DNA from: Saccharothrix algeriensis
GTDB taxonomy: Bacteria; Actinomycetota; Actinomycetes; Mycobacteriales; Pseudonocardiaceae
Reading direction: 5' to 3'
DNA: 64,000 nt
Assembly: GCF_016907655.1 (NCBI RefSeq)
Contig: NZ_JAFBCL010000001.1
Location: 4,746,001 to 4,810,000, forward strand
The notes under the pieces were generated by a model. The model was not told where the DNA came from. It worked only from the letters and a program-made list of their open reading frames with translations, and ran no database searches. The translations under genes and the position numbers were made by a program. Shown piece by piece: positions 2,440 through 60,600 of the stretch. How positions within the stretch are numbered: position 1 is the first letter of the stretch; each line of letters begins with the position of its first letter.

Positions 2440-2690
2440 GGGCTGAAAGCGTCCTCGCCGAACCGGCGGGCACACAAGGGCGACGCAGAAGCCGAGAGCG
2501 GGGCGGCGTGCCATCCCGTACGGCTTGGCCGTGGACAACCGCCTGTGTCAAGGGAGATCGTCGCGGTGTCCTGCGTCCTGTGAACGCTCCGCAGGCTCCG
2601 TGTTCCCGGGACTCCGACGAGAATGCCGATCTCCCCTGGGCACAGGCGGTTCGCCGGCGCGCAGGCCGTACGGGGATGACACGACACCCA
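2440..2690. repeat. Degenerate composite palindromic element
   Basis: The outer arms ATCCCGTACGGCTTG (about 2513-2527) and the complement of CAGGCCGTACGGGGAT (2662-2677) pair with one indel. Inside, 2537-2560 and 2627-2651 are complementary over about 24 bases with two mismatches and one indel. An inner stem CCTGCG/CGCAGG lies at about 2570-2595. The outer signature CCGTACGGC-TG is shared with the elements at 56763-56893 and 57075-57199. The upstream stretch near 2448-2480 (AAAGCGTCCTCGCCG) resembles 57025-57040 (AAAAGAGTCCTCGCCG). I infer a third, worn member of that family. No gene is supported here. Confidence 0.6.
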
Positions 2691-53480: not shown

Positions 53481-54175
53481 ACCGCCGCGACGAGCTGGCC
53501 GCGAACCTGGCCGAGGTCCGCGCGCGGGTCGACCGGGCGTGCGCCGCCGCCGGGCGGGACAGCGCCGAGGTGGCGCTGCTCGCGGTCACCAAGACGTTCC
53601 CGGCGCAGGACGTGGCGCTGCTGTCCGAGCTGGGGCTGACCGAGTTCGCCGAGAACCGGGACCAGGAGGCGGGGCCGAAGGTCGCGGAGTTCGCCGCGCT
53701 GCGGCCGGGCGCGCCGGCCCGCTGGCACATGGTCGGCGGCCTCCAGCGCAACAAGGCCAGGACCGTCGTGCGGTGGGCCGACCAGGTCGACTCGGTGGAC
53801 TCCGAGCGGCTGGCGGACGCCCTGGCGAAGGCGGCGACCGCGCCGCTGGACGTCCTGGTGCAGGTCAGCATCGACGGCGACCCGAAGCGGGGCGGGCACC
53901 CGCTGCCGGACCTGCCCCGGCTGGCCGAGTACGTCACCCGGAAGGACGAACTTGTCCTGCGCGGTGTGATGACTGTCGCACCCCTCGGGATGTCTCCACG
54001 CCAGGCGTTTGACGCTCTTCACAGTGCGGTAACCCGCTTGCGCGCCGATCACCCCACTGCGACCGTGATCTCGGCGGGGATGTCCGGTGACCTGGAAGAT
54101 GCGATTGCGTGCGGATCCACGTGCGTGCGTGTCGGAACAGCGTTGCTGGGCGGCCGGAGACTAGCCTCGCCGTAA
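53477..54175 (+). CDS. yggS: PLP homeostasis protein YggS/PROSC
   Basis: A 232-residue single-domain PLP-binding barrel. The PLP lysine is in LLAVTKTFPAQDV, followed by EFAENRDQEAGPKV, WHMVGGLQRNKART, DSVDSERLADAL and the phosphate site SAGMSGDLEDAIACGSTCVRVGTALLG. It buffers pyridoxal phosphate and has no known catalysis. It lies in the usual pgeF-yggS-sepF order. Confidence 0.93.
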   Translation: MNRRDELAANLAEVRARVDRACAAAGRDSAEVALLAVTKTFPAQDVALLSELGLTEFAENRDQEAGPKVAEFAALRPGAPARWHMVGGLQRNKARTVVRWADQVDSVDSERLADALAKAATAPLDVLVQVSIDGDPKRGGHPLPDLPRLAEYVTRKDELVLRGVMTVAPLGMSPRQAFDALHSAVTRLRADHPTATVISAGMSGDLEDAIACGSTCVRVGTALLGGRRLASP

Positions 54176-54244
54176 CTGTCGGGGAACCTCTGGGACGGCC
54201 GCGACGTCCTTGCGGGTAGGGATCGGCGGAGGAAGGGCTCGACC

Positions 54245-54865
54245 ATGAGCGGGTTTCACAAGCTGAAGGCCTACTTCGGGATGGTTCCCGCCGAGTACGC
54301 CGACGACCCGGACTACGAGGCCGACCGAGCGGGGCGGTACGACTACCGCGCCGAGTACGCCGACCACGAGGACTACGAGCCCTACCCCGAGCAGCGCAAC
54401 GGCCGCCGGCCGGCGACCCGCTACCGCGGCGAGCCGGAGGAGGCGGAGGACTTCGAGGCCGACCTGCGGGCCCGGGCGGCTCGGCGGTCCTGGACCGCCG
54501 AGCCGACGCACGGCGCGCTGGCCGTGGAGCCGCAGCGGGAGCCGGTCAGCCGGGCCCGCCCGGCGCCCGAGCCCGCCCGAAAGCCGCTGGGCCGCATCAC
54601 CACGCTCAACCCGCGCAGCTACAGCGAGGCGCGGACCATCGGCGAGCACTACCGCGACGGCACCCCGGTGATCATCAACCTCACCGACATGAACGACGCG
54701 GACGCCAAGCGGCTGGTCGACTTCGCGGCGGGGCTGGCGTTCGCGCTGCGCGGCTCGATCGACAAGGTCACCAACAAGGTGTTCCTGCTCTCACCGCCCA
54801 ACATCGACGTCACGGCGGAGGACCGCCGGCGGCTCGCCGAGGGCGGGTTCCTCAACCACGGGTGA
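54245..54865 (+). CDS. sepF: Z-ring anchor SepF
   Basis: A 206-residue protein. The N-terminal amphipathic helix MSGFHKLKAYFGMV binds membrane. A variable acidic linker with DYE/DYR runs follows to about residue 110. The SepF core is TTLNPRSYSEARTIGEHYRDG, VIINLTDMNDADAKRLVDFAAGL and KVFLLSPPNIDV. In actinobacteria SepF replaces FtsA as the FtsZ anchor, and none of the window's genes is ftsA. Confidence 0.94.
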   Translation: MSGFHKLKAYFGMVPAEYADDPDYEADRAGRYDYRAEYADHEDYEPYPEQRNGRRPATRYRGEPEEAEDFEADLRARAARRSWTAEPTHGALAVEPQREPVSRARPAPEPARKPLGRITTLNPRSYSEARTIGEHYRDGTPVIINLTDMNDADAKRLVDFAAGLAFALRGSIDKVTNKVFLLSPPNIDVTAEDRRRLAEGGFLNHG

Positions 54866-55170
54866 GTGATGGCACAGTTGGTGGTGTGTTCGCACTCGCG
54901 CTCGTCGTCTACTACGTGCTGTTCGCGTTCTGGCTGCTCCTCACGGCCCGGGTCGTCGTGGAGCTGGTCAGGTCTTTTGCCAGGGAGTGGCGGCCCGCAG
55001 GCGGCGTCGCGGTGGCCCTGGAGACCGTCTACACCGTGACCGATCCCCCGGTCCGGCTGCTCCGTCGGCTCATCCCGACGGTGCGGATCGGGGGCATCGG
55101 TCTGGACTTGTCCATTATTGTGCTGTTGCTGGTCGTTATCATTCTGATGCGAGTAGCCGATCCCAGGTGA
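54862..55170 (+). CDS. yggT: YggT-family membrane protein
   Basis: A 102-residue protein with two hydrophobic segments (ALALVVYYVLFAFWLLLTA and IGLDLSIIVLLLVVIILM) and the family motif TDPPVRLLRRLIPTVRIGGIGLDLS between them. It is usually encoded between sepF and divIVA. The GTG at 54862 overlaps the sepF stop; a GTG at 54886 is possible. Function unknown, perhaps in osmotic or cell-shape control. Confidence 0.88.
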   Translation: MSDGTVGGVFALALVVYYVLFAFWLLLTARVVVELVRSFAREWRPAGGVAVALETVYTVTDPPVRLLRRLIPTVRIGGIGLDLSIIVLLLVVIILMRVADPR

Positions 55171-55215
55171 GGGGACCAGGGATGTCCACAGCCCAGGAGT
55201 GCGTGAGGTGATCTG

Positions 55216-56028
55216 ATGCCGTTGACCCCCGCGGACGTGCACAACGTCGCGTTCAGCAAGCCGCCGATTGGCAAGCGGGGCTACAACGAGGACGAGGTGG
55301 ACGCGTTCCTCGACCTGGTTGAGGGCGAGCTCGCCCGCCTGATCGAGGAGAACAACGACCTGCGCCAGCAGGTCGAGCAGCTCGACCAGCAGGTCGAGAC
55401 CGCACGAGCCGACCTCGAGGACGCCCGCGCCAAGGTAGCCGCCGGCGTCGGTCCCGGCCGCGTCGTCGACGAGCCGCGCCGGCTCGCGCCGGTGCCGCCC
55501 CCCTCGGCCATGGAGCAGACCTCGCCCGGCGGTGGTGGCGACCACCACGTGCAGGCGGCCAAGGTGCTCGGCCTGGCCCAGGAGATGGCCGACCGGCTCA
55601 CCGGCGAGGCCAAGGCCGAGGCCGACGGGATGCTGTCCGAGGCGCGGACCAAGTCCGAGCAGCTGCTCTCGGAGGCGCGCGCCAAGGCGGACACCATGGT
55701 GAACGAGGCGCGCACCCGCGCCGAGACCATGCTGAACGACGCGCGCACGCGCGCCGAGACGCTGGAGCGGCAGGCCCGCGAGAAGGCCAGCGCGCTCGAC
55801 CGCGACGCGCAGCGCAAGCACGCCGAGGTGATGGGCAACATCACCCAGGAGAAGAACACGCTGGAGAAGCAGATCGACAAGCTCCAGACGTTCGAGCGCG
55901 AGTACCGGACCCGGCTCAAGACCATGCTGGAGTCCTCGCTGCGCGACCTGCAGGACCGCGGCCCCGCCGCGCCGTCCGACGGCCGCCAGCAGGGCTACTC
56001 GTTCGGGGCGCGCGCCGAGGCCGGCTGA
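55216..56028 (+). CDS. wag31: Polar growth protein Wag31/DivIVA
   Basis: A 270-residue DivIVA protein. The membrane-binding start [33 protein letters not shown] is conserved. A coiled coil (about 35-75), a proline-rich gap and a second long coiled coil (about 110-245) follow, built of repeats like [20 protein letters not shown] and [10 protein letters not shown]. It marks cell poles and recruits the elongation machinery. ATG preceded by GAGGTG. Confidence 0.95.
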
Positions 56029-56058
56029 CCGATCGGTCGGTGATCCGGGTCCGCGCGC

Positions 56059-56634
56059 GTGCTGTACGTCGTCCTGCTGCTGGTGCTGGCGGCCCTCGGG
56101 CTGCTGGTCCCCGCGCTGACCACCTCCCAGTCCCACTGGGCGTGGTCCTCCGTGGGTGCGAGCGCGGCTGCCGCCCTGGTCCTGCTCTGGGACTGGTGGC
56201 GGCACCGCCGCCGCACAGGGCGAGCCCCGGCGGCTGCCGGCGCCGCGGCGGGACGGTCCGACCACGCGCTCGGTGACGGACCCGTTCCCGCTCCGGACGA
56301 CGCGGCCGGCGCCGGGGCTGCCGGCGGAGCCGGCCGTCCTGCCGGTCGGGTCGGTTCGTCCGGCTCGCCCGCCCGGAACGAGGGCGCCGGGGCCGCCGAG
56401 CCGGCCGAGGAGGGCACGGACGCGGCGGACGCGCTCATCGTCGCGGACCTGCCCGATGAGGTCCGGGTGCTGGACGAGCGACCGCGCTACCACCTGGCGG
56501 CGTGCGAGTGGCTCGGCGGCCGGGCCTCGCTGGGCCTGCCGGTCTCCGAGGCGCGTCGGCTGGGCTTCACGCCGTGCGCGGTGTGCGGCCCCGACTCGGC
56601 GCTGGCCGCGAAGAAGCGCTCGTCGGGCCTCTGA
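56059..56634 (+). CDS. Membrane protein with a cysteine/histidine C-terminal motif
   Basis: A 191-residue protein. Two N-terminal hydrophobic segments (about 1-19 and 30-46) are followed by a long Ala/Gly/Pro-rich linker. A compact end follows: RYHLAACEWLGGR, then LGLPVSEARRLGFTPCAVCGPDS. The pattern H-x3-C with a later C-x2-C is like the zinc motif of Ada-type and related small domains. I recall similar genes next to divIVA in Pseudonocardiales but know no function. It is the last gene of the dcw run before the hairpin region. Confidence 0.75.
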   Translation: MLYVVLLLVLAALGLLVPALTTSQSHWAWSSVGASAAAALVLLWDWWRHRRRTGRAPAAAGAAAGRSDHALGDGPVPAPDDAAGAGAAGGAGRPAGRVGSSGSPARNEGAGAAEPAEEGTDAADALIVADLPDEVRVLDERPRYHLAACEWLGGRASLGLPVSEARRLGFTPCAVCGPDSALAAKKRSSGL

Positions 56635-56762
56635 GCACCTCTGCCGGCCCTCACTCGCAGTCGCTCCCCGCCGGCTGCACCCCTGTTCGCTTCACCCCCG
56701 TCTGCGAACCTTTTCCGCAATGCGCGGAGCAGTGCCGCACCTCGTGCGCACACCGGTGCCTT

Positions 56763-56893
56763 CGTGTTCTCCTCCCCGTACGGCCTGGGCGCAGCCCGAT
56801 CGCATTTGTCGGGGGGTGTCAAGCACGCTCTTCGCTTGACACCCCCCGACAAATGCGATTGCCTTCGGCAGGCCGTGCGGGGAGGAGAACACG
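56763..56893 (+). repeat. Palindromic element, copy 1
   Basis: Outer arms at 56763-56787 and 56869-56893 match over 25 bases with one mismatch that could pair G-U in RNA. Inner arms at 56799-56824 and 56834-56859 match perfectly over 26 bases around the nine-base loop ACGCTCTTC. The inner arm contains GGGGGGTGTCAAGC. Spacers between outer and inner arms are 11 and 9 bases. Copy 2 has the same dimensions on the opposite strand. Confidence 0.85.
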
Positions 56894-57074
56894 ACCGCTC
56901 TTTCTTTTCCTCCTCCTTGGGGGCCTCTCGGCCGCTCTTCATACCTCTGACCTGCACTGATCCGGGTTGGAACAGGTGCGGTGCGGATCTGATCAGTGCT
57001 GTGCCGCCCGAGGCTGAAGGGATTAAAAGAGTCCTCGCCGGACAGGCAGGCCGCCAAGGAGGAGGAAGAGCGGT

Positions 57075-57199
57075 CGTGTTCTCCCCGCATGGCCTGTCAA
57101 AGACGACCATGCTTTCTTGGGGGGTGCAAGCGAAAAGCGTGCTTGCACCCCCCAAGAAAGCATGGTAGCCCTCCGGGCAGGCCATACGGGGAGAACACG
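57075..57199 (-). repeat. Palindromic element, copy 2 (inverted)
   Basis: Outer arms at 57075-57096 and 57178-57199 match over 22 bases with one mismatch. Inner arms at 57106-57131 and 57141-57166 match perfectly over 26 bases around GAAAAGCGT. Read on the reverse strand the loop is ACGCTTTTC, one base from copy 1, and the spacers are again 11 and 9 bases. The distal half of the inner arm differs from copy 1 on both sides together. Confidence 0.85.
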
Positions 57200-57422
57200 A
57201 AGACACCGGTCTGCACGGGGCGTGCGGAGCCACGAGCGCAGGGGTGGCGGTTCAAGGGGGGTTCTGCTCCCGCGCGGTCTTGCCGTGGTCCTGAGTGCCG
57301 GCGGTCGGAGGTGCCGGGGTCGGGGCGGTCCGGTCAGGGGCGGTCCCGTCAGGAGCGGTCCGGCCCGGTCGTCGGCCTGGGGGTGGGGCCGACCGCGAAG
57401 GGATCGCGTTTGCGCGGGCGGT

Positions 57423-57428
57423 TACGCT
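57423..57428 (+). promoter_or_regulatory. Possible -10 of the ileS leader
   Basis: TACGCT fits the actinobacterial TA-n3-T pattern and lies a few bases before the start of the T-box leader. No convincing -35 is visible. Confidence 0.45.
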
Positions 57429-57432
57429 TGAC

Positions 57433-57637
57433 TTAGAACGGCGTTGATCCGGACATCACCGGGGAGTCTCCGGAAGAACGGGCGCGAGCCTCAGTAGAAC
57501 CGGACGGGTTCGGCCCGTTACAGCCGGTAACGAGTGGCCGTCGTGCGCGTCGCGTCGGCAAGCGGGGTGGTACCGCGGTGCGCCTGAGCGCGTCGTCCCC
57601 GTGTTGCCGATGACTGGAGCACGCGAGGAGCTGCGCG
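57433..57637 (+). ncRNA. T-box riboswitch of ileS (actinobacterial short type)
   Basis: The leader carries GAACGGCG at the base of a short stem I and an isoleucine specifier ATC at about 57455-57457 inside GGACATCACCGGGG. A middle stem CCTCAGTAGAACCGGACGGG follows, and then the T-box core GGGGTGGTACCGCGGTGC at about 57564-57581, where the bulge pairs with the tRNA end. CGTCGTCCCCG follows. The closest match I recall is the ultrashort translational ileS T-box of mycobacteria and Nocardia. There, uncharged tRNA-Ile frees the ribosome site, here GAGGAG at about 57625-57630. There is no T-rich terminator, which agrees with translational control. Confidence 0.9.
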
Positions 57638-60600
57638 ATGGCCTACCCGAAGGCAGGCGAGGGTTCGGTGCCCTCCCAGCCGTCTTTTCCCGCACTGGAA
57701 CAGGACGTCCTCGACTTCTGGAAGTCCGACCGGACGTTCCGGGCCTCGATCGACGCCCGGCCCGCGGGGGACCGGGGCGCCAACGAGTTCGTCTTCTACG
57801 ACGGCCCCCCGTTCGCCAACGGCCTGCCGCACTACGGCCACCTGCTGACCGGCTACGTCAAGGACGTGGTCCCGCGCTACCGGACGATGCGCGGCCGGCA
57901 CGTCGAGCGCCGGTTCGGCTGGGACACCCACGGGCTGCCCGCCGAGGTGGAGGCCGAGAAGCAGCTCGGGTTCTCGTCGAAGTCCGAGATCGAGGCGTTC
58001 GGCATCGAGAAGTTCAACGAGGTCTGCCGCACGTCGGTGCTCCGGTACACCGACCAGTGGCGCGACTACGTGACCCGGCAGGCGCGCTGGGTGGACTTCG
58101 ACGACGACTACAAGACCCTCGACCTGGACTACATGGAAAGCGTCATGTGGGCCTTCAAGACCCTGTGGGACAAGGGCCTGGTCTACGAGGGCTTCCGGGT
58201 GCTCTGGTACTGCTGGCGCTGCGAGACGCCGCTGTCCAACACCGAGACCAAGATGGACGACACCTACCGGGACCGGCAGGACCCGGCGGTGACGGTCGGG
58301 CTGCGGTTGGAGACCGGTGAGCTGGCCCTGGTGTGGACGACCACGCCGTGGACGCTGCCGTCCAACCTCGCCGCCGCCGTGCACCCGGACGTGGACTACG
58401 TGACCGTCGAGGCGAACGGCGAGCGCTACCTGCTGGCCGAGGCCCGCGTGCCCGCCTACGCCCGCGAGCTGGGCGAGGAGCCGCCCGTGGTCGCGCGCTG
58501 CAAGGGCGCGGACCTGGTGGGCCGCCGCTACGCGCCGCCGTTCGGCTTCTTCGTCGGCCGGGAGAACGCCCACCAGGTGCTGGCCGCCGACTACGTCACC
58601 ACCGAGGACGGCACGGGCATCGTGCACATCGCGCCCGCGTTCGGTGAGGAGGACAAGGTCGTCACGGACGCGGCGGGCATCGAGGTCGTCGTGCCCGTGG
58701 ACGCGCACGGCCGGTTCACCGCCGAGGTGCCGCCGTACGAGGGCCAGCACGTCTTCGACGCGAACAAGGCGATCATCCGCGACCTCCGCGACGCGGGCCT
58801 GCTGCTGCGCCACGAGACCTACGACCACCCGTACCCGCACTGCTGGCGGTGCGACAACCCGCTGATCCAGCGCGCCGTGTCGTCGTGGTTCGTCGCGGTG
58901 AGCAGGTTCAAGGACCGGATGGTCGAGCTGAACCAGCAGATCAACTGGGTGCCCGAGCACATCCGGGACGGCCAGTTCGGCAAGTGGCTGGAGAACGCGC
59001 GGGACTGGAACATCTCCCGCAACCGGTTCTGGGGCTCGCCGATCCCGGTGTGGGTGTCCGACGACCCGGAGCACCCGCGGGTGGACGTCTACGGCTCGCT
59101 GGACGAGCTGGAGCGCGACTTCGGCGTGCGCCCGACCGACCTGCACCGGCCCGGCATCGACGAGCTGACCAGGCCGAACCCGGACGACCCGACCGGGCGG
59201 GCCACGATGCGCCGGGTGCCCGAGGTGCTGGACTGCTGGTTCGAGTCGGGCTCGATGTCCTTCGCCCAGGTGCACTACCCGTTCGAGAACGCCGAGTGGT
59301 TCGACGACCACTACCCCGGTGACTTCATCGTGGAGTACAACGGCCAGACGCGCGGCTGGTTCTACACGATGCACGTGCTGGCGACGGCCCTGTTCGACCG
59401 CCCGGCGTTCAGGAACTGCGTGGCGCACGGGATCGTGCTGGGCGACGACGGCCAGAAGATGTCCAAGTCGCGCAAGAACTACCCGGACGTGAACGAGGTC
59501 TTCGAGCGCGACGGCTCGGACGCCATGCGGTGGTTCCTCATGGCGTCGCCGATCCTGCGCGGCGGCGACCTGGTCGTCACCGAGCGCGGCATCCGGGACG
59601 CGGTGCGCCAGGCCGTGCTGCCGCTGTGGAACTCCTGGTACTTCCTCGCCCTGTACGCGAACGCGGAGGGCGTCGAGGGCCGGTGGCGGACGGACTCGCG
59701 GCACGTGCTCGACCGGTACGCGCTGGCGAAGACGCACGACCTGGTGGCCGACGTGACGGCCCGGATGGACGCCTACGACATCTCGGGCGCGTGCGCGTCG
59801 ATCCGGGAGTTCCTGGAGGTGCTGACCAACTGGTACGTCCGCCGCTCCCGCACCCGGTTCTGGGCGGGCGACCAGGACGCGGTGGACACCCTGCACACCG
59901 TGCTGGAGGTGGTGAGCCGGGTGGCCGCGCCGCTGCTGCCGCTGACCGCCGAGGTCGTGTGGCGGGGCCTGACCGGTGGCCGCTCGGTGCACCTGGCGGA
60001 CTACCCGTCGGCGGCCGACCTGCCCGCCGACGACGCGCTGGTGGTCGCGATGGACCAGGTGCGGCAGGTGGCGTCGACCGCGCTGTCGCTGCGCAAGGCC
60101 AACAAGCTGCGGGTGCGGCTGCCGCTGGCGAAGCTGGTCATCGCGGCGCGCGACGCGCGGCGGCTGGAGCCGTTCACCGAGATCGTGCGGGACGAGGTGA
60201 ACGTCAAGGAGGTCGAGCTGACCACCGACGTGGACGCGCACGGGCACTTCCAGCTCGCGGTCAACGCGCGGGTGGCCGGCCCGCGGCTGGGGCCGGACGT
60301 GCAGAAGGTGATCAAGGCCGTGAAGTCCGGCGACTGGGCCGAGGTGGACGGGAAGGTGGTGGCCGCGGGCATCGAGCTGTTCCCGGAGGAGTACGACCAG
60401 CGGCTGGTCGCCACCGACCGCGGCGCGACGGCGGCCCTGCCGGACAGCGGCGGCCTGGTCGTGCTGGACACCGCGGTGACCGAGGAGCTGGCGGCCGAGG
60501 GCATCGCCCGCGACCTGGTGCGGGTGGTGCAGCAGGCGCGCAAGGACGCGGGCCTGGAGGTCTCCGACCGGATCTCGCTGACCCTGGAGCCGGCCGAGGG

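Follow-up and report, generated by a model that had tools for sequence, protein, structure and literature searches.

A mirror pair of hairpin units upstream of ileS in Saccharothrix algeriensis and an apparently undescribed family of strand-specific folds shared with rolling-circle replicons

The described systems closest to the repeat analysed here are the sso/sti of pIJ101, the palindromic REP, BIME and REPIN repeats, MITEs and the replication modules of AICEs (pSAM2/RepSA type). REP palindromes are tagged GTAG or CGTC and, like the units presented below, REP-type repeats are intergenic, occur singly or as inverted pairs and reach high copy numbers. MITEs resemble our element in their inverted termini, non-coding nature, intergenic placement and polymorphic presence. 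For the AICE replication modules, no account of a fold like the unit of our family was found in the open-licence literature searched. An sso is judged by an extragenic position with one copy in each rolling-circle replicon, by a fixed orientation to rep, by a secondary structure in one strand and by the conversion of single-stranded intermediates into double strands. PMC4170104 describes the sso of pIJ101 as working through host factors, the priming of pSN22 as needing no RNA polymerase and the vector pIJ702, of pIJ101 type and devoid of an sso, as accumulating single strands; PMC3733652 gives the size of REPs as 20–40 bp.

The window (i.e. the whole stretch of 64,000 nt of the S. algeriensis chromosome that was analysed) contains two opposite-facing hairpin units, with a dcw-cluster membrane-protein gene that ends at 56634 on one side and the T-box leader and gene of ileS on the other (Table 1). 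A sequence-only reading had described this pair, together with 26-bp perfect inner arms and 9-nt loops, and recomputed coordinates and complementarity agree with it in both units; the 38-nt termini are also complementary, which extends the mirror layout. The units share one plan: P1, the outer stem, surrounds small side hairpins and the long inner stem P3, and is followed by a repeated P1 strand (P1*) and a GGCGAG tail. The P1/P3 fold alone takes up ∼130–143 nt, and the unit with its tail ∼200 nt.

Table 1. Coordinates of the paired element, its parts and neighbouring features in the window
Feature	Position	Strand	Basis or remark
Whole element, two mirror units tail-to-tail	56735..57227	none	493 bp; genomic copies ∼83–93% identical over most of the length
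Left terminal inverted repeat: mini-hairpin GCACCTCGTGC + ACCGGT	56735..56772	+	alike in most copies inspected
Left unit (P1 to P4)	56762..56894	+	complementarity, DNA fold, covariation, model matches
Left outer stem P1	56762-56787/56869-56894	+	96% complementary
Left side hairpin P2	56787-56797	+	
Left inner stem P3	56799-56824/56834-56859	+	26 bp, 100% complementary
Left P3 loop ACGCTCTTC	56825-56833	+	9 nt
Left side hairpin P4	56861-56869	+	
Left P1* (second P1 5' strand) and tail hairpin GGCC-TCTC-GGCC, T-rich end	56904..56940	+	read from sequence
Variable centre separating the two tails	56941..57019	none	differs between copies; IS630-type element or gene interrupts some
Right tail: T-rich end, hairpin GTCC-GGCGA-GGAC, P1* (CCTCCTCCTTGGCGGCC)	57022..57066	-	sequence; arrangement recurs in other species
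Right unit	57074..57200	-	complementarity, covariation, model matches
Right outer stem P1	57074-57096/57178-57200	-	96% complementary
Right inner stem P3	57106-57131/57141-57166	-	26 bp, 100% complementary
Right P3 loop ACGCTTTTC (minus-strand reading)	57132-57140	-	9 nt
Right terminal inverted repeat with mini-hairpin	57190..57227	-	82% complementary to left terminus
Third, degenerate family unit	2496..2690	-	R1 57.5 bits, E 3e-13; R2 38.2 bits
ileS T-box leader	57435-57603	+	48.3 bits, under Rfam gathering score 93
ileS gene	57638 onward		

When folded as RNA, a 506-nt stretch is far more stable than expected (z = -22.3; none of 100 shuffles equally good), and folding of units as single-stranded DNA gives z = -13.2 and -15.0, the latter for the left unit of the window. 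R1, a covariance model trained on 36 units from five genomes within the genus, scores the left unit at 150 bits (E 7.7e-38) and the right unit at 154.9 bits (E 3.8e-39, minus strand), both units being among its training sequences. The third, degenerate unit has an internal extension in its inner stem and a DNA fold that is only moderately special (z -2.8); a tail-like GGCGAGGACGCTTTC lies beside it on the minus strand, near 2447–2461.

The S. algeriensis genome (6,878,582 bp, one contig) contains many near-full-length matches to the element. The core of the right unit, GCAAGCACGCTTYTCGCTTGC, occurs 45 + 56 = 101 times and its reversed control 0 times, and what is repeated is mostly the entire 493-bp pair. 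The sequence-only reading had staked its proposal of a repeat family on further copies and on compensated changes in the arms; the genome search and the covariation analysis found both. Our alignment A2 (36 sequences) supports 52 pairs (P1 23, P2 3 and P3 26), with 98.1% of cells paired versus 82.3% in shuffles and double changes at 31 of the 52 pairs. The covariation score is 0.441, compared to 0.141 for shuffled alignments and 0.06–0.10 for partner-slid controls, so that the paired changes first noticed between the two inner stems of the window recur as compensated changes across copies. The side hairpin P4 (GTC-TTT-GAC, GCC-TTC-GGC) is visible in A2 but lies outside the pair count. The loops in A2 are 9 or 10 nt long and start with ACGC (i.e. 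ACGCTTTTC, ACGCTTCACC and variants), this being the loop through which A2 and host-type units were located; elsewhere in the family the loop is longer or of another kind.

We then analysed the residues that do not pair. In the inner stems of the host's own units these are TG (9), GT (3), CA (3) and TC (1), and the CA and TC cells are confined to two units with arms of different types. In other species, a shared inner-stem defect, G.G beside G.U, is frequent (12 of the 36 A2 rows). In the outer stems, G.T exceeds A.C in every group, e.g. 191:10 in the host's right units (where about eight units with an IS end replacing the 5' arm inflate the non-pairs), 45:4 in its left units and 41:2 in S. tamanrassetensis. 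A wider set, in which the strand was assigned from the tail motif and thus independently of pairing, shows 57 G.T versus 2 A.C on the tail-bearing strand (23 rows) and, for the other strand (26 rows), 3 G.T versus 62 A.C. Of the 108 rows in this set, 57 had been set aside because a tail was absent or stood on both sides, and two more dropped as duplicate or not placed. This asymmetry indicates that the fold is kept in one particular single strand, as is expected of an sso, and is the same for RNA as for DNA.

The order of parts downstream of the fold is a second P1 5' strand, a hairpin centred on GGCGAG and a T-rich stretch. P1 resembles the downstream region of its own unit (mean 7.57) more closely than in any of 2000 permutations (mean 6.58, sd 0.17), in a test of 42 hand-picked diverse units that did not include the left unit of the window.

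Related units are also present on rolling-circle replicons. Four regions of Saccharomonospora that were picked by their units all contain RepSA (PF20199, E 8.7e-157 in the one scanned), and three of them also encode an FtsK-like and a small conserved protein. Within the genus of the host, RepSA has 27 matches in 18 of 25 genomes. Eight of 20 RepSA regions drawn from these matches by a non-random choice (L418, L422–L427 and L430) carry one unit each at E < 1e-6, most of them with an FtsK-like Tra; this is the likeness to AICE replication modules. The host's own RepSA region is among the 12 without a unit. A further 20 regions picked by units (14 genomes) include five with RepSA and two with FtsK and a small AICE gene; the other 13 show no AICE gene by the queries used, or a GntR match only.

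The replicon-borne units sit outside annotated or called genes and are oriented alike. In all 19 regions with a replicon gene, the unit runs parallel to Rep (17) or FtsK (2), with the tail 47–63 nt downstream. Three plasmids carry a single unit in each monomer, on the strand of Rep (i.e. NZ_CP109466, with two 8.1-kb halves, R1 E 7e-13; NZ_LT559119, E 2.5e-17; and NZ_CP059998, E 7.1e-16), which brings the replicon cases with a unit parallel to Rep or FtsK to 22 of 22. These plasmids were reached from a short tail match of a Saccharomonospora unit to a Streptosporangium plasmid, and from there to two more via relatives of its Rep. Sequence searches of plasmids with the window element and with a unit of G002, and of phages with a Saccharomonospora unit, gave no match. 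A significant model match is absent in six of nine fetched plasmids, including pIJ101 with its known sso. The Rep of unit-bearing replicons is either RepSA or a REP_ORF2-G2P protein without a RepSA match; the RepSA proteins also match REP_ORF2-G2P, which shows that the two Rep types are related.

A second model, R2, was built from replicon-borne units only (16, previously found by R1). It detects both units of the window (left, E 6e-14; right, E 1.9e-10) as well as other chromosomal units. For the right unit of the window, which it reports on the plus strand, and for L101, L117, L224, L281 and L287, the R2 strand is opposite to the tail-based strand; R2 therefore supports homology and not strand. 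On the 12 RepSA regions without a unit it gives one weak hit (L414, E 0.006).

Judged from sequence, there is roughly an even chance (about 0.5) that the units are minus-strand-origin-like (sso) elements of rolling-circle replicons that were amplified on the chromosome. Such a unit would fold on the displaced strand of the replicon and so let host factors prime second-strand synthesis. The replicon form would then be the ancestral one. The same element has multiplied on the Saccharothrix chromosome, possibly via single-stranded DNA, in the host mostly as 493-bp tail-to-tail intergenic pairs. Since related folds occur on rolling-circle replicons in a fixed Rep orientation, a replication element is a better fit than either a terminator or an ordinary transposon. 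A unit common to replicons of different Rep type suits an sso more than a Rep-specific dso, and the combination of a strand-specific extragenic fold, fixed Rep orientation and occurrence with both Rep types favours an sso over a dso, a transfer site or a terminator. The orientation expected of an sso is found in 17 of 17 RepSA cases, two of two cases with FtsK only and three of three plasmids. The family thus resembles the sso/sti of pIJ101 in its strand-specific fold, extragenic position and orientation parallel to rep, and, in the three unit-bearing plasmids, in the single copy per monomer. It differs in having no significant model match to pIJ101, in being scattered over the chromosome about a hundred times and in its tail-to-tail pairing, the latter two of which were not found for any sso in the open-licence papers searched. 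Against an sso also stand the 12 of 20 RepSA regions and six of nine plasmids that show no model-detectable unit, the 13 of 20 unit-picked regions with no AICE gene or a GntR match only, the relatedness of the two Rep types, the strand preference of R2 and the shared inner-stem defect in other species. The G.U asymmetry would equally be expected of an RNA, and the tail resembles a terminator.

Grouping the RepSA regions L412–L431 by the number of matches in their genomes gives a graded picture, in a post hoc comparison uncorrected for kinship. A unit is present in 7/8 regions from genomes of 0–6 matches (G002, G012 ×2, G018 ×3, G022 and G040), 1/6 from genomes of 19–60 matches (G003, G004 ×2, G005, G011 and G013) and 0/6 from genomes of at least 78 matches (the host, G008 ×3, G010 and G016). 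This is consistent with chromosomal units that act against incoming unit-bearing integrative elements by competing for priming factors or a recognition protein, i.e. with an incompatibility, of which the 'strong incompatibility' of pIJ101 would be a relative; we consider such an effect quite unlikely. Another bold reading would make the units chromosomal priming or replication-restart sites. The strand split of the host's right-type cores between the two replication halves is 26/21 versus 19/34 (p 0.07, with the origin assumed at position 1), and this split was set aside as evidence.

If the unit were a structured non-coding RNA that ends in a terminator-like tail of its own, travels on integrative elements and has spread over chromosomes, the folding strand would instead be the transcript. 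Such an RNA would be a rival to the origin. It accounts for one strand having G.U and hardly any A.C mismatches, for the hairpin followed by a T-rich tail and for the recurring ACGC-starting loop of host-type units (which also served to locate them). The Rfam results do not favour it: a scan of 54000–58000 of the window gave the T-box and a 22.6-bit mir-6012 match only, both below the gathering score, and four replicon regions gave tRNAs only, so that membership of a known RNA family found no support in these regions. Moreover, a GntR gene beside replicon units often points the opposite way, and the orientation of the unit tracks Rep rather than this neighbour, while units on chromosomes are not oriented in any constant way to genes. 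We regard such an RNA as doubtful.

A rather unlikely explanation is a transposable repeat of MITE or REP/BIME-like kind that is not autonomous, would be moved by some transposase and entered the integrative elements by chance. Its inverted termini and patchy high copy number are as expected, and so is its intergenic placement: an ORF call overlaps one of 37 intact copies, as against 77.5% coding sequence in the flanks with the same crude caller. The ileS site is likewise filled in the host and empty elsewhere. In none of 24 relatives of the genus did a model search detect a unit in the 1.5 kb upstream of ileS, the best other match there being 21.8 bits (E 0.0015, in L145), and the spacing between the membrane-gene match and ileS is 257–554 nt in 18 relatives, 886–920 in four and 998 in the host (two further relatives have no value). 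The absence of a unit in the relatives and the longer spacing in the host indicate that the host pair is an insertion. Of the roles suggested by the sequence-only reading, insertion is thus supported, while a terminator or an ordinary transposon is disfavoured by the Rep-oriented units of the replicons.

The searches for a mobiliser covered two profiles. Y1 transposase (PF01797) has no match in the host, G008, G010, G015 and G016 and one in G023, and reverse transcriptase (PF00078) has none in the host genome, on which ground retrons and retrotransposition were rejected. Strict REP/BIME (i.e. RAYT-mobilised) membership is unsupported, since the host has no Y1 match and the unit is far above REP size; the likeness to enlarged REP/BIME pairs noted earlier holds for the tail-to-tail layout. 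From MITEs the family differs in its nested covarying fold and its link to rolling-circle replicons, and neither a partner by the Y1 and reverse-transcriptase profiles nor a clear target duplication was found. By eye, no constant target duplication is seen beside 42 copies, whose flanks are decayed short repeats. Random insertion would also not be expected to leave 22 of 22 replicon units parallel to Rep or FtsK, and transposition by double-stranded ends needs no compensated arms.

The flanks and centres of the host's copies have features of their own. The left flank of many copies (e.g. L061, L062, L083 and L096) is a decaying ∼30-bp satellite array of the CACGCAGCGGTGCCGCACCTCGTGCGCTTTG type, and the right flank is often purine-rich GAAAACCCGAAAGCC. 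An IS630-type element lies inside the repeat copies L067, L081, L089, L093, L253 and L303, and a gene occupies the centre of one copy (L078:3524–4250), whose product (145 aa as typed) has no match in a Pfam scan. These look like later insertions. IS630 was rejected as the mobiliser of the repeat: it is a visitor, since in L067 it sits in the variable centre bounded by its own TGATCTTCAATTG ends and in L081, L089 and L093 it is inserted at CATAC|TGATC. The junction CATAC|TGATCTTCAATTG of these three copies is a possible insertion hot spot.

Bidirectional transcription terminators, or protectors of mRNA 3' ends, are very improbable. Many of the host's copies do lie shortly downstream of a stop codon, their hairpins are stable and followed by a T-rich tail, and 12 of 42 copies are between convergent genes. 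However, by the crude, GC-based ORF caller that defines these contexts, nine copies lie between two forward genes, 15 between two reverse genes and six between divergent ones, and the single units of other species occur in every gene context among the loci examined. Furthermore, 26 perfect pairs and a downstream copy of P1 would be superfluous for termination.

A functionless palindrome-correcting mutation by template switching alone, a mechanism that PMC8794818 describes, could make the inner stems perfect over 26 pairs in 160 of 171 host hairpins across 40 arm sequences, but is hardly credible, as it predicts neither the one-strand G.T residues, nor the downstream copy that tracks P1, nor the Rep-linked orientation, and stems with defects are frequent outside this species. 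These 171 hairpins came from the regions at 100 listed places of the right core and from the left-unit places, by a lenient loop match (at most two substitutions in the loop-flanking bases) and the outer-arm signature on one side or both. The perfect arms may instead reflect selection on the fold, aided by hairpin template switching.

Set against the open-licence literature searched, the hairpin repeats are apparently a hitherto undescribed family of DNA elements with a strand-specific fold, which occurs on some integrative elements and rolling-circle plasmids of actinobacteria from soil. The family joins palindromic repeats dispersed on chromosomes with strand-specific parts of such replicons, two subjects that are mostly treated separately. 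If the origin-like reading is right, the family would provide (i) a model with which candidate minus origins of some actinobacterial conjugative elements can be sought, (ii) a concrete source for one large chromosomal repeat family and (iii) some hundred natural copies in one genome in which to study how changing hairpin arms remain paired.

The distribution of the family in the relatives of the host is patchy. A degenerate core pattern is present in six of 390 genomes of the taxonomic family, including the host, and its control in none. R1 has matches in 23 of the 25 genomes of the genus (E <= 0.001), with at least 128 in each of three genomes, the host included; at E <= 1e-6 and with stricter filters, it matches 40 of 150 sampled genomes of the taxonomic family, in 15 of 44 genera including that of the host. 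All these R1 counts take in both strands of one palindrome. Single units predominate at the loci examined in S. obliqua, S. espanaensis and Lentzea, and pairs at those in S. algeriensis and S. tamanrassetensis.

Some of these loci show further peculiarities. The gene between two S. obliqua units at L224, putatively creatininase-like, is treated as an ordinary neighbour. In Lentzea (L182–L243), the intergenic surroundings of the units are a mosaic of short repeat modules, and several contigs stop at a unit. A unit is found at the same site between thiolase-like and Bax1-like genes (named by eye) in the host (L287), S. espanaensis (L165) and Lentzea (L204), and each of the three is of its own species' type, which fits either concerted evolution or repeated insertion.
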